Below, piece by piece: positions 2,523 through 25,077 of a stretch of DNA of 64,000 nt. The first letter of the stretch is position 1, and each line of letters starts with the position of its first letter. The stretch spans positions 285,390-349,389 of the forward strand of contig NZ_MSCP01000003.1 in assembly GCF_002954715.1 (NCBI RefSeq), in the 5' to 3' direction. The DNA comes from Aliivibrio sifiae (GTDB lineage: Bacteria; Pseudomonadota; Gammaproteobacteria; Enterobacterales; Vibrionaceae). A program made the position numbers and the translations under genes. The notes under the pieces are model-generated. The model saw only the letters and a list, made by a program, of their open reading frames with translations, did no database searches and was not told where the DNA came from.

Positions 2523-3284
2523 ATGATTGATACCCACGCTCACATATATGCGAAAGAATTTGATGAAGACCGAGATTTAGTGGTTCAGCGCGCCTTAGCA
2601 CAAGGTATTGATCAAATTTTATTACCAAATATCGATTTAGAATCTATCGAACCAATGCTTCAAACCGAAGCTGCCTACCCTAATATTTGTCGCTCAATGA
2701 TGGGATTACACCCTTGCTATGTAAATGCAGATGTTAAGCAAACCCTAGCAACAATCCACTCTTGGTTTGAGAAACACAACTTCATTGCGGTAGGTGAAAT
2801 AGGTATTGACCTATACTGGGACAAAACCTTTAAAGCTGAACAAGAGATGGCTTTTATCACCCAATTAAACTGGGCAAAAGAGATGAAACTGCCTGTTGTT
2901 ATCCATACTCGTGATTCTATTGAAGAAACATTAACCCTGCTTAAGCAAGAGCAAGATGGCTCATTATCAGGCACTTTCCATTGCTTTGGTGGTTCTGTTG
3001 ACGAAGCGAAAGCAATTAATGATTTAGGCTTTCATCTTGGTTTAGGCGGCGTTTCTACCTTTAAGAATGGTGGTATGGATAAAATAATCCCTCATCTTAA
3101 TATGGATTACTTAATTCTAGAGACCGATTGCCCATATTTAGCCCCTGTACCTCATCGTGGTAAACGTAATGAGCCAGCGTATACGCAATTAGTTGCTCAA
3201 CGTGTAGCTGACTTACGTGAGATAAGTTTAGCGGATGTGGATGCGATTACGACGGCGAATGCGAAAAGACTTTTTGGGATTTAA
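2523..3284 (+). CDS. tatD: TatD-family metal-dependent hydrolase / DNase
   Basis: This 253-residue TIM-barrel metallohydrolase has every TatD metal ligand visible: DTHAH (H5, H7), GEIGID (E92), VIHTRD (H128), FHCFGG (H153) and ETDCPYLAP (D202). Family members are 3'-5' exonucleases or phosphodiesterases implicated in DNA quality control. The N-terminus (MIDTHAHIY...MGLHPCYV) differs from classic E. coli TatD and is more like YcfH- or Bacteroidetes-type members, so the symbol denotes the family rather than strict orthology. It is not part of the tat operon here, which lies 2 kb away on the other strand beyond the csrB repeats. Confidence 0.9.
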   Translation: MIDTHAHIYAKEFDEDRDLVVQRALAQGIDQILLPNIDLESIEPMLQTEAAYPNICRSMMGLHPCYVNADVKQTLATIHSWFEKHNFIAVGEIGIDLYWDKTFKAEQEMAFITQLNWAKEMKLPVVIHTRDSIEETLTLLKQEQDGSLSGTFHCFGGSVDEAKAINDLGFHLGLGGVSTFKNGGMDKIIPHLNMDYLILETDCPYLAPVPHRGKRNEPAYTQLVAQRVADLREISLADVDAITTANAKRLFGI

Positions 3285-3322
3285 GAGAGAAAAATAGAGT
3301 TCAGAATTAAACCCTGCATTCA

Positions 3323-3497
3323 CAACCCCTCCTAGCCTCCCCTTATATCGACATTGGTGATCACATAAGATATTTACTCAAGGGGAGGAACTGTCTTGTG
3401 ATCGCTGAAATAACCACACCACAGAAGGTTCTCCTCCCTTTACCTATGAATTACTGGGAGCAATAATATCAATACAAGGGGGAGTTAGAGGGGGTTG
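3323..3497. repeat. MITE-like palindromic element, copy A
   Basis: The element is about 175 bp and has imperfect terminal inverted repeats of about 26 bp. The left end begins CAACCCCTCCTAGCCTCCCC; the complement of the right end begins CAACCCCCTCTAACTCCCCC. It has no coding capacity. A second copy lies at 4347-4520. It could be a non-autonomous transposable element or a large palindromic intergenic repeat; no clear target-site duplication was recognised. Confidence 0.7.
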
Positions 3498-3606
3498 TTG
3501 ATACCATATTTCATCAAGATTCTGAATCAGATTTTGCTCTTATAGAAGCGAAGCGGTCTAGCCTCTAGTTAGCGCAGCGTATAGGTTTTTACTTTGCTCT
3601 AAACAA

Positions 3607-3638
3607 GAAAAACCCCGGTAGACTCTCGTCCAACGGGG
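3607..3638 (-). terminator. csrB: Terminator of csrB copy A
   Basis: A CCCCG/CGGGG stem with an inner GAC/GTC helix is followed on the minus strand by a T-run. Confidence 0.9.
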
Positions 3639-4029
3639 TTATAACTTTACTCGCAGCAATCCGGCTACTAATGGTGCTCCATGCATCAAATCCTTGATAG
3701 TATACTGATTCCTTCAGTGCATTCCTTTCTCGCTATCCTAGCGGTGTCCTTGATCTTATCCTGATCCGTTAACAATCCGTAGTTAACTCTCTTCACTTGT
3801 TCCTTGAGCGGTGTCCCTTACATCATCCTGATGTGCAATCCATTTTCCTCAATCCTAGAGGTGTCCATCGTCTTTCCTTAGTAGCAACCATCCTAGTTAC
3901 TATTGCGTCCATTCAATGTCCATTTTGCTATCCGTGCCGATTACTAATCCTAAGTAACCGAGTGCCTCATCCTGAAGCGTACCAAATCCTTGGCTAGTTC
4001 CTGTTCCGTGTCAGCATCCTTCCGACACC
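3607..4029 (-). ncRNA. csrB: CsrB-family CsrA-sequestering sRNA, copy A
   Basis: Read on the minus strand, this is a chain of short hairpins with GGA in almost every loop (for example CATCA-GGA-like-TGATG and CGCTA-GGA-TAGCG). I count about 29 GGA trinucleotides before the terminator. The 3' segment GTAGCCGGATTGCTGCGA closely resembles the corresponding end of E. coli CsrB. It ends in a strong terminator at 3607-3638. The predicted 5' end at about 4028-4029 lies just after a promoter (TTGCTG, 16 bp, TAATCT). CsrB RNAs titrate the translational regulator CsrA and are activated by the GacA/VarA response regulator. V. fischeri is known to have two such RNAs; which name applies to which copy is not decided here. 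Confidence 0.93.
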
Positions 4030-4063
4030 AATAAGATTACGCTTTTCATTATTTTCAGCAATA
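4030..4063 (-). promoter_or_regulatory. csrB: Promoter of csrB copy A
   Basis: On the minus strand TTGCTG and TAATCT are separated by 16 bp, about 6 bases before the predicted RNA start. The same two hexamers and spacing recur upstream of copy B although the spacer sequence differs. Confidence 0.65.
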
Positions 4064-4193
4064 GACTAAATTCAAACTTTTGCAAAAAGAATTATCCTAC
4101 TTTCAATAGTAAAATTAAAAAATATACATATCAATAACTTAACTAGTAATTAGTTCAATTTAGACATGAATAAAGCGAAAATGCGCACTTGTT

Positions 4194-4211
4194 TGTGAGA
4201 GATCTCGCACA
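4194..4211. promoter_or_regulatory. GacA/UvrY (VarA)-type upstream box of csrB copy A
   Basis: The 18-bp near-palindrome TGTGAGAGATCTCGCACA fits the GacA consensus TGTAAG-N6-CTTACA in spacing and symmetry. It sits about 170 bp upstream of the RNA start, similar to the far-upstream activator sites of enteric csr RNAs. It is conserved in both repeat units although the DNA between it and the promoter has diverged, which implies selection. Confidence 0.75.
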
Positions 4212-4346
4212 CGGGTAATGGGGTTTTGGGAATAAGGATTCAGATCGCTACGCTTAAAGGTTTCAAGAGTGAGCGTGGTAAGTGATAAATACAACTAGAA
4301 ACTATAAGATCAAGACAAAATACGGAGCAATTAACACCTGTATTCA

Positions 4347-4520
4347 CAACCCCTCCTAGCCGCCCCTTATATCGACATTGGTGATCACATGAGATATTTA
4401 CTCAAGGGGAGGAACTGTATTGCGAGCGCTAAAATATCCGCACCAAAGAAGGTTCTCCCCCTTTATCTATGAATTCCTGAGAGCGATAATATCAATATAA
4501 GGGGGAGTTAGAGGGGGTTG
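4347..4520. repeat. MITE-like palindromic element, copy B
   Basis: This is the second copy of the element at 3323-3497, with the same imperfect terminal inverted repeats and scattered point differences. Confidence 0.7.
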
Positions 4521-4628
4521 CTGACACCATAATCTATTAAATTCAGAATCAACTCTCGCTCTTATAAAAGCGAAGCGTTCTAGCCTCTAGTTAGCGTAGC
4601 GTATAGGCTTTTACTTTACCCCAAACAA

Positions 4629-4660
4629 GAAAAACCCCGCTAGACTCTCGTCTAACGGGG
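4629..4660 (-). terminator. csrB: Terminator of csrB copy B
   Basis: A CCCCG/CGGGG stem with an inner TAGAC/GTCTA helix and TCTC loop is followed by a T-run on the minus strand. Confidence 0.9.
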
Positions 4661-5051
4661 TTATAACTTTACTCGCAGCAATCCGGCTACTAATGGTGCT
4701 CCATGCATCAAATCCTTGATAGTATACTGATTCCTTCAGTGCATTCCTTTCTCGCTATCCTAGCGGTGTCCTTGATCTTATCCTGATCCGTTAACAGTCC
4801 GTAGTTAACTCTCTTCGCTTGTTCCTTGAGCGGTGTCCGTTACATCATCCTGATGTGCAGTCCATTTACCTCAATCCTAGAGGTGTCCATTGTCTTTCCT
4901 TAGTAGTAACCATCCTAGTTACTATTGCGTCCATTCAATGTCCATTTCGCTATCCGTGCCGATTACTAATCCTAAGTAACCGAGTGCCTCATCCTGAAGC
5001 GTACCAAATCCTTGGCTAGTTCCTGTTCCGTGTCAGCATCCTTCCGACACC
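4629..5051 (-). ncRNA. csrB: CsrB-family CsrA-sequestering sRNA, copy B
   Basis: This is a near-identical duplicate of copy A with the same predicted length (about 423 nt), hairpin chain and GGA loops. Differences are scattered single bases. Several fall in loops or improve pairing: the stem read here as TAGTAAC/GTTACTA is perfect, whereas copy A has a mismatch. In the terminator an A-T pair replaces a mismatch present in copy A. Possession of its own promoter, terminator and GacA-type box indicates an independently transcribed gene. Confidence 0.93.
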
Positions 5052-5085
5052 ATTGAGATTACGCCTTTCACCTATTTCAGCAATA
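5052..5085 (-). promoter_or_regulatory. csrB: Promoter of csrB copy B
   Basis: TTGCTG, 16 bp, then TAATCT on the minus strand, identical hexamers and spacing to copy A. Confidence 0.65.
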
Positions 5086-5215
5086 GACTAAATCCTAATT
5101 TTTGCAAAAAAAAATATACGTTATTTACCACGAAAAACAAAAGTATTAAATTTCAACAAGTTAACTAAAAACCGATAATTTTCGACTACAAATAAAGCGC
5201 CAAATCTCACTAACT

Positions 5216-5233
5216 TGTAAGAGATCTCGCACA
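5216..5233. promoter_or_regulatory. GacA/UvrY (VarA)-type upstream box of csrB copy B
   Basis: TGTAAGAGATCTCGCACA has one perfect TGTAAG half-site. It lies at the same distance from the RNA start as the box of copy A. Confidence 0.78.
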
Positions 5234-5350
5234 CGGCTTTTCCATTTTATCTCTACTATCTCTCATGCCTTAAAAATCTAACCGTGATACTGATCACTCT
5301 ATAGCCGAATAAAATAAAATAACGCCCTATTTATGGCTTAAAAAAGAATA

Positions 5351-5380
5351 AAAAAAAGCGCTGATATAGTATCAGCGCTT
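5351..5380 (-). terminator. Terminator of the tatABC transcript
   Basis: AAGCGCTGAT pairs with ATCAGCGCTT. On the minus strand the hairpin runs into a T-tract about 25 bases after the tatC stop. Confidence 0.88.
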
Positions 5381-5405
5381 TCAATTTTATTTATTCTAAC
5401 AAGTA

Positions 5406-6161
5406 TTATGCTTCGTCTTTTTCCATGTCATCTTCATTTTCTTCCCTTACATAAAAACGAGAGAAGAACAAACCGAACTCAAACAGAATACACATAGGTA
5501 CTGCAAGTAGGGTTTGAGAAATAATGTCTGGCGGTGTTAGCATCATACCCACAACAAACGCACCGACAACAATGTATGGACGTTTTTGCTTTAAGGTTTC
5601 AGGTGTTGTTGCTCCTGTCCAACATAATAAAATGATGGCGACGGGAATTTCAAACGCGATACCAAAGGCAAGGAATAAAGCTAAAACAAAATCAAGATAA
5701 CTGGCGATATCCGTAGCAACTTGAACGCCTTCCGGTGCAATGTTTGTAAAAAAGCTAAACACTAACGGAAAAACGATAAAGTAAGCGAAAGAAACGCCTG
5801 CATAAAACAACATTGAGCTTGAGAACAATAACGGCATGATCAGTTTCTTTTCATGCTTATACAGTCCAGGAGCTACAAATGCCCATACTTGATAAAGAAT
5901 CACTGGAACAGCGACAAATATCGATGCCACCAAAGTCAGCTTTATAGGCGTGAAAAATGGTGACGCGACATCAGTTGCTATCATCGTTGCACCGGCTGGT
6001 AATCTTTCTACCAACGGCGCTGATAAGAACTCATAAATGTCATTAGCAAACCAGACCAGACCTAAAAACACCACGATTACGGCAATTAATGCCTTTAATA
6101 GACGGTTTCTTAGCTCTAATAGGTGAGTTAACAACGGCTGAGAGTGTTCAACTGATGACAT
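5406..6161 (-). CDS. tatC: Sec-independent protein translocase subunit TatC
   Basis: TatC is the polytopic inner-membrane core of the twin-arginine translocase and binds the RR signal peptide. The 251-residue protein (E. coli 258) shows the family pattern: an N-terminal [12 protein letters not shown] helix start, the periplasmic stretch [21 protein letters not shown] before the third helix, and six hydrophobic segments. The C-terminus is acidic ([11 protein letters not shown]). It is last in tatA-tatB-tatC, 2 bases after tatB, and followed by a terminator, so the three are co-transcribed. Confidence 0.97.
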
Positions 6162-22956: not shown

Positions 22957-23093
22957 TTAGTATAAAATTAAAGTGTGATTATAAGTTTTTATTACCTACA
23001 TTGGTGTTATTTTCAATAGCAATAAATTCAAATGAATCGATTATCTATCAAACAATCCCACAATTTCTTTATATCTAAGATGTAAATGATCTC

Positions 23094-23187
23094 TTGTTCC
23101 CTTCGCAGGTATTAGCCTAATCAGGTTCTACGGATCCCGCAATGCGGTCTCAGCTCGTACTTTAAAAAGTACTAAGCACTCCGACAA
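23094..23187 (-). promoter_or_regulatory. TPP (THI-box) riboswitch controlling thiCEFSGH
   Basis: On the minus strand the conserved elements appear in order: CGGAGTGC, CTGAGA, GGATCC, GAACCTGAT and GCGAAGGGA, with P1 closed by CTTGT/ACAAG. These are the THI-box hallmarks. The 3' end lies about 200 bases before the thiC start. No unambiguous terminator was recognised in the intervening AT-rich leader, so attenuation versus translational control is not settled. Upstream (23194-23220) is a hairpin with TTCAGTTTT arms. The remaining 23221-23435 shows no gene that I can see. Confidence 0.95.
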
Positions 23188-23435
23188 GTTTCTTTCAGTT
23201 TTCTTTGGTGAAAAACTGAACTCTATCGGAGTATAAAGAAAGTAAATTAAAATTGAAACGGAGATTTAATCTGGTTGGTGGAGTTTGTGAGTAACCGCAT
23301 ATTGTGCTTTGTATATAACAACTCATATTGAGCCTTGTGTGCTTCGTAGCAAAAAAACACCTTTGCATCCGCAGCTCTTACACCATCAAATACAATGTTC
23401 TTTTTTTGGAGAAGCACATTAGGTTCTAATCTACA

Positions 23436-24829: not shown

Positions 24830-24961
24830 GAATATCTATCTTTTAATAATGGTTAATCAAAAGGATAGACTATCTTAGAAGAGAAGAGAAATAACAAACA
24901 ACTCTACTATAGACGGATCTATCCCAATAGAATCAGAATAATCTGATCAGGATACGCTACA

Positions 24962-25016
24962 GTAGGAATCATTATCTCTAAATTAGAGCGGTTAAAGGTG
25001 GAAATCCATCACCTGA
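24962..25016 (-). promoter_or_regulatory. Fluoride riboswitch (crcB motif)
   Basis: On the minus strand the aptamer reads GGTGATGG, loop, TTCCACC (P1), then TTTAACCGCT, a CTCTA/TAGAG hairpin, and ATAATGATTCCTAC. This matches the crcB-motif pattern GG.GAUGG..UUCC.CC..UAACCGC....UGAU..CUCCUAC with few deviations. It lies about 130 bases upstream of the CLC-F gene. The leader in between holds small hairpins (for example ATCAGATTATTCTGAT) but no clear terminator, so the expression platform is uncertain. Confidence 0.9.
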
Positions 25017-25077
25017 GATCGACGATAACACCAATCAATGAGAGAAATGCTACTCCTATCATTTATAAATGGCAAAT

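Follow-up and report, generated by a model that had tools for sequence, protein, structure and literature searches.

The csrB pair and its signals

The window, a stretch of 64,000 nucleotides, sits in contig C3 of an Aliivibrio sifiae genome of 4.74 Mb and 8 contigs (G000). It contains two csrB-type RNA genes arranged in series on the minus strand, between two genes which we take to be tatC and tatD. Throughout this work, the gene on the tatC side is named copy A and the one on the tatD side copy B. The features of the locus are the following.

2523..3284, plus strand: open reading frame, presumably a tatD-type gene, downstream flank of the pair
3305..3520, no strand given: palindromic repeat element after copy B
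3602..4029, minus strand: CsrB-type RNA copy B, 428 nt with 30 GGA, putative start set by conservation
3611..3640, minus strand: terminator hairpin of copy B, seen in the fold with one stem mismatch and absent from the scan list
4129..4141, plus strand: IHF-like site belonging to copy B, with no mismatch to the IHF consensus WATCAANNNNTTR, 52 bp past the box
4194..4211, minus strand: GacA/UvrY-type box of copy B, TGTGCGAGATCTCTCACA, from a pattern search of window and genome
4329..4541, no strand given: palindromic repeat element after copy A
4624..5051, minus strand: CsrB-type RNA copy A, 428 nt with 28 GGA, putative start set by conservation
4633..4662, minus strand: intrinsic terminator of copy A, from the terminator scan
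5151..5163, plus strand: place in copy A equivalent to the IHF-like site, one mismatch to the consensus
5216..5233, minus strand: GacA/UvrY-type box of copy A, TGTGCGAGATCTCTTACA, from the same pattern search
5406..6161, minus strand: open reading frame, presumably tatC, upstream flank of the pair

A first-pass annotation had proposed a tandem csrB-type pair on the minus strand, and the Rfam CsrB covariance model RF00018 (gathering score 71) matched both copies on that strand above threshold, copy B at 3602-3918 with 95.1 bits (E 3.2e-24) and copy A at 4624-4940 with 94.9 bits (E 3.6e-24). These results confirm that the pair is real and that its members are well supported as CsrB genes. A third csrB gene of this genome is located on contig C1 (88.8 bits). 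With the conserved start and the last base of the T run as limits, each RNA is 428 nt long and not about 423 nt as first annotated. The GGA motifs exceed those of 2000 single-base shuffles, where means of 11.3 and 11.6 and maxima of 21 and 20 were obtained for copies A and B, respectively. The earlier count of about 29 GGA loops agrees with the number of motifs but not of loops, since roughly half of them (15 in copy A, 16 in copy B) fall in predicted hairpin loops in one minimum-energy fold each. A coding explanation for positions 3285-5405 was dropped, as no open reading frame of at least 80 amino acids is listed there. Elsewhere in the window, minus-strand matches were found to a TPP riboswitch (23081-23193, 73.2 bits) and to a fluoride riboswitch (24956-25022, 51 bits).

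The form of the GacA/UvrY/VarA box searched here is the one printed in the part of PMC6262261 available to us. Both boxes were found exactly where they had been annotated, each ending 164 bp before the start of its RNA. With up to 3 mismatches, 0.15 matches would be expected in the window and 4 were found, at 2 places on both strands; with up to 2 mismatches the whole genome has 3 box places, all at csrB genes; the pattern read backwards, used as a control, gave 0 matches in the whole genome. The same genome contains one CsrA match and a single protein that passes the UvrY/GacA model, with 433 bits against a cut-off of 280.

A promoter and a terminator had also been assigned to each copy. A sigma-70 scan returned 4 sites versus 5.3 in shuffles, that is, a number at chance, so the putative promoters rest on a conserved block and not on the consensus: from -61 to -2, nine pairs show mean identities of 81% between copies A and B and 98% among copies B. 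The terminator of copy A was recovered by the scan, whereas that of copy B was only seen as a mismatched hairpin in the fold. Finally, the description of a diverged control DNA between alike boxes, promoter blocks and RNAs was borne out, identity between the two window copies being 97.7% for the RNA and 60.4% for the region that begins 60 bp ahead of the box and ends at the RNA start. The two copies are spaced by 1022-1024 bp, as expected from the proposed 1.02-kb direct duplication, but with these identities the repeat is a broken one.

Distribution of the pair and of the IHF-like site in the genus

We searched 14 genomes of the genus and found csrB in 13 of them; G069, an assembly of 790 contigs, gave no match. 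Among the 13 csrB-bearing genomes, the tatC-tatD place holds a pair in nine and a single copy in four (G024, G053, G061 and G049). In G049, tatD adjoins the single csrB, and the 5-kb stretch showed no tatC. One of the pair-bearing genomes, G065, is A. salmonicida LFI1238, as its contig C6 (4327 bases) is 100% identical to plasmid NC_011316.1 over 4000 bases; it has one adjacent csrB pair, located at tatC-tatD. A. finisterrensis LMG 23869 (G296), in the same genus group, shows csrB match places as in the pair-bearing G010. In 78 named loci (L036-L113, one of them from a MAG labelled Aliivibrio), no csrB was found near tatC within the fetched stretch, using a profile trained on a mixed-strand set which still recovered the known Aliivibrio copies.

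Two of the copies are shortened, copy A of A. salmonicida (311 nt, L149 2320-2630) and copy B of G029 (378 nt, L141 2137-2514). Their existence, together with the mismatched terminator of copy B in the window that was missed by the scan, would be expected if one copy were dead or decaying and the pair had no dosage meaning. However, both window copies are full length and carry a box and their GGA content, the block upstream of the start is conserved between copies A and B and even more among copies B, and the shortened copies themselves retain their boxes and 19 and 25 GGA motifs, respectively. We regard the decay of one copy as improbable.

A perfect IHF-like site located 52-53 bp past the box is present in all nine copies B and in all four single copies. 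None of the nine copies A has it, and seven of them show a site with one mismatch at 51-52 bp. Among the csrB1 copies, only 1 of 12, that of the window genome, has a perfect site. For these and for the trees and control-region identities, 12 of 13 csrB1 loci were used, L154 of G029 being excluded because only the 3' part of the RNA matched. When these stretches are shuffled, 1.7 to 6% of the shuffles contain a perfect site, and since the copies B are related, their nine sites are not nine independent observations. In E. coli, the target of UvrY is an inverted repeat of 18 nt located far upstream, and csrB requires IHF while csrC does not (PMC4682653). The split between copies A and B might hint at a different tuning of the two genes.

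Evolution of the RNAs and of their control regions

Control regions are more alike by position than by genome. Mean identities are 84.0% among copies B (77.5-94.5% across nine genomes), 73.0% among copies A and 67.6% for A against B; for the two control regions of one genome the average is 58.7 to 67.1%, depending on the stretch aligned. Within-genome pairs were no closer than others, as 17,262 of 20,000 permutations reached values as high. In the control-region tree, the nine copies B form one clade with support of 100/99, and holding together the two copies of one genome was rejected in all five genomes tried (p-AU 2.4e-7 to 0.015); these five of the nine are the same for which within-genome pairs were tried in the RNA tree. 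One clade of copies A was weakly rejected (p-AU 0.0374), so that control regions follow position cleanly for B only. In three of four genomes, the single copy is at roughly the same distance from the control regions of A and of B. Read as lineages, the control regions would be older and position-specific, B cleanly so and A not. As a separate observation, loci L137 (window genome) and L147 (G057) have identical TatC and near-identical control regions of copy A (tips 0 and 0.006), with larger differences in TatD (98%) and in the control regions of copy B (tips 0.07 and 0.13), a contrast that looks like a recombination border inside the locus.

These data bear on the possibility that the pair arose by a recent tandem duplication of 1.02 kb, here or in each species, followed by fast divergence of unconstrained control DNA. 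The regular spacing and the likeness of about 98% between the RNAs are in line with it, and the A. salmonicida pair is read as a recent duplication in PMC6262261, on the part of its text available to us. Nevertheless, copies B of different genomes are more alike in their control regions than copies A and B of the same genome, the pairing of control regions within genomes was rejected in every genome tried, and the palindromic element after copy A of the window is 95% like that of copy A in G034 versus 90% like the element after copy B in its own genome. On the control-region identities and tree tests we rejected a simple recent duplication, which we consider very improbable, the least likely of the alternatives weighed here. 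One simple duplication private to the window genome did not stand either, with the pair present in nine genomes and their B control regions in one well-supported clade.

The palindromic element was considered as a freshly duplicated partner of csrB and rejected on the same identities: its two window copies resemble copies from other genomes at least as closely as they resemble each other. It is about 200 bp long, and 23 matching pieces, including the two of the window and some half-elements, were found in the genome: 21 on the 387-kb contig C3, 2 on C1 (2.5 Mb) and none on C2. They are dense at 119-130 kb and 205-220 kb of C3, where the open reading frames at 204-222 kb are presumably ordinary housekeeping genes.

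The RNAs behave differently from the control regions. In the nine pairs, copies A and B of the same genome are on average 97.9% alike, versus 96.7% (A-A), 96.4% (B-B) and 96.4% (A-B) between genomes. When copies B were dealt among genomes, the observed RNA identity was reached in 1 of 20,000 permutations (3 of 20,000 with another seed). The figure was 32 of 5040 without the genomes of the two shortened copies, 2 of 5040 without one of each close pair and 2 of 120 when both reductions were applied. The excess of likeness is strongest at RNA positions 238-356, with 99.4 to 100% within and 95.2 to 97.3% between genomes, and upstream of the RNA start an excess within genomes is absent. In four of the nine genomes, the nearest partner of copy A is the copy B of another genome: copy B of G010 is nearest to the copies A of the window genome, G039 and G057, and that of G044 to copy A of A. 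salmonicida. Homogenisation would therefore be incomplete, or some RNA might have moved between species.

A second genus was included in the comparison. Two or three csrB genes in series were found in all seven named Photobacterium genomes searched (P. lipolyticum, P. profundum, P. obscurum, P. ganghwense, P. jeanii, P. arenosum and P. kishitanii). Group g8 was taken as Photobacterium because it shares its csrB match places with named genomes, and six of the seven correspond to g8 genomes with boxed copies (G022, G130, G149, G140, G017 and G032). Among the matches listed, 35 g8 arrays were picked by hand; searched with a strand-correct profile, they comprise 92 boxed copies. Counting gaps, the best within-genome RNA pair is at least 95% alike in 18 of the 35, 87 to 92% in six, 74% with a large indel in one and below 70% in ten. 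For the 18 twin pairs, identity over the first 150 bp beyond the box is 29-54%, single-base shuffles giving means of 32-39%; contrary to the pattern, copies 2 and 3 of G096 are 77% alike in control DNA and 89% in RNA. Of the 35 genomes, 16 were further grouped by hand into four sets. Mean control-region identity in these is 57 to 83% for copies at the same position and 44 to 49% for copies at different positions, and the RNAs of one genome are more alike than those of different genomes in three sets and equally alike in the other. With three of the four sets and twin pairs in 18 of the 35 arrays, the pattern recurs in a second genus, although not in every array.

Some g8 arrays (L177, L201, L202 and L203) have three genes, with outer RNAs 96-100% alike and a middle one of a different lineage. 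A perfect IHF-like site is present in 20 of the 92 Photobacterium copies versus 2% of single-base shuffles, 9 of these 20 being minus-strand sites 53 bp beyond the box. Since twin copies were not cleanly split by it, an IHF rule for Photobacterium was abandoned. Eight g8 copies, for example the third copies of G102, G114, G056 and G126, show a second geometry, in which a perfect site lies on the other strand, 65-66 bp beyond the box.

In the RNA tree of Aliivibrio, one clade of copies B was rejected (p-AU 0.0045), as was one clade of copies A (p-AU 0.0107). Out of five within-genome pairs tried, four were joined in the best tree, two of them with strong support, and the fifth was not joined and not rejected (p-AU 0.164). 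When csrB1 rows were added, G019 and G029 were the only genomes with a supported within-genome pair. The RNA alignment has 42 informative columns, and 13 of 30 inner branches are open and 9 starred. With so few differences, part of the pattern could be imitated by purifying selection with recurrent changes at identical positions, and an old duplication without gene conversion, under strong selection on the RNA and with an uninformative RNA tree, has to be weighed. Against this stand the rejection of one B clade for the RNA, the concentrated excess of identity at positions 238-356, and the same within-genome excess in Photobacterium, in three of the four sets and not in the fourth. We judge this explanation unlikely, though it is the strongest of the rivals.

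Thus, the likeness of the RNAs within genomes combined with a single clade of B control regions suggests an older duplication, common to at least nine species, with gene conversion acting over the transcribed part. If so, the recent duplication published for A. salmonicida is probably wrong.

It had also been proposed that the tandem arrangement allows loss or gain of copies by recombination. The single copy of G049 has an A-type flank before the box, as judged by eye, and a terminator letter found in six of nine copies B and in no copy A, a combination that recombination between A and B inside the RNA would produce. On the other hand, its IHF-like site is perfect, unlike that of copies A, and its control region (mean 68.7% like A, 65.4% like B) was placed in neither group in the tree. 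Loss or gain by recombination is thus possible, with this one copy pointing thinly towards it.

Proposed regulation and comparison with known systems

On the basis of these patterns and of homologous systems, the following scheme is proposed. At each gene, active GacA/UvrY would bind the 18-bp box, whose centre lies about 173 bp before the RNA start, and IHF would probably bend the intervening DNA so that GacA reaches RNA polymerase. The 428-nt RNA, once transcribed, would expose many GGA motifs, bind CsrA and lift its repression, as in the homologues. Gene conversion would keep the two RNA bodies of a genome alike while the two control regions diverge, copy B keeping a consensus IHF site and copy A a site with one mismatch. 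Given this difference, the two copies would most likely supply one and the same RNA, each with a tuning of its own; that they answer one GacA signal with differing IHF dependence is the least certain step. As a whole, an old shared duplication with conversion of the RNA and separately tuned GacA-driven switches acting on CsrA appears likely to us, and the interpretation of the pair in the first-pass annotation is supported. More tentatively, and with somewhat less than even confidence, tandem csrB arrays of Vibrionaceae may in general be one RNA with several privately tuned switches feeding one CsrA sponge.

If this is true, selection and gene conversion hold one RNA species per genome while control regions follow lineages of their own, and an array could sum separate inputs, here those of two promoters that answer one GacA signal, one of them IHF-strong and the other IHF-weak. 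Trees made from CsrB RNA alone would then misdate duplications, old ones appearing recent. Why bacteria keep several copies of a sponge RNA is a question raised in PMC6262261, and in PMC4211561 for sibling RNAs in general. Homogenised RNAs next to separate control regions would offer a testable answer, namely that copies are retained for their switches and not for differences in RNA.

Since the adjacent csrB2 and csrB3 of A. salmonicida are already in print (PMC6262261), the tandem arrangement itself is known, and what is new here is how the pair evolves, with homogenised RNAs and separate control regions. Among the matches listed in a literature search with subscription journals mostly outside its reach, no title or abstract opening dealt with concerted evolution or gene conversion in csrB, and neither term is used in the portions of PMC6262261 and PMC4211561 examined. 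In the literature searched, the A. salmonicida pair was met in PMC6262261 only, whose available text names an adjacent third copy for this species alone and bases the recent duplication on an RNA tree. The window pair resembles csrB2/csrB3 in being adjacent CsrB genes at a tatC-tatD place, presumably the published one. It differs from the published case in being common to nine genomes, with a likeness that better fits homogenisation, and its copy A is full length whereas that of A. salmonicida has 311 nt. In V. fischeri, CsrB1 and CsrB2 are RNAs of the same type, both activated by GacA (PMC4573307), and account for 19% and 37%, respectively, of the sRNA reads listed for vesicles (PMC7665748). 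Judging from the Aliivibrio synteny groups in the part of PMC6262261 at hand, CsrB2 is probably the counterpart at tatC-tatD.

The Photobacterium arrays are like the window pair in having csrB genes in series and unlike it in that many hold a divergent further copy. In E. coli, csrB and csrC are separate genes and not a near-identical tandem pair. They share with the window pair a far-upstream 18-nt UvrY site and IHF dependence in one of the two (PMC4682653). A further parallel in arrangement is that of rsmX-1 and rsmX-2 of Pseudomonas brassicacearum, tandem GacA-driven RNAs that titrate RsmA/E and arose by duplication, which differ from the csrB pair in being about 110 nt long and 75% alike (PMC7911923).
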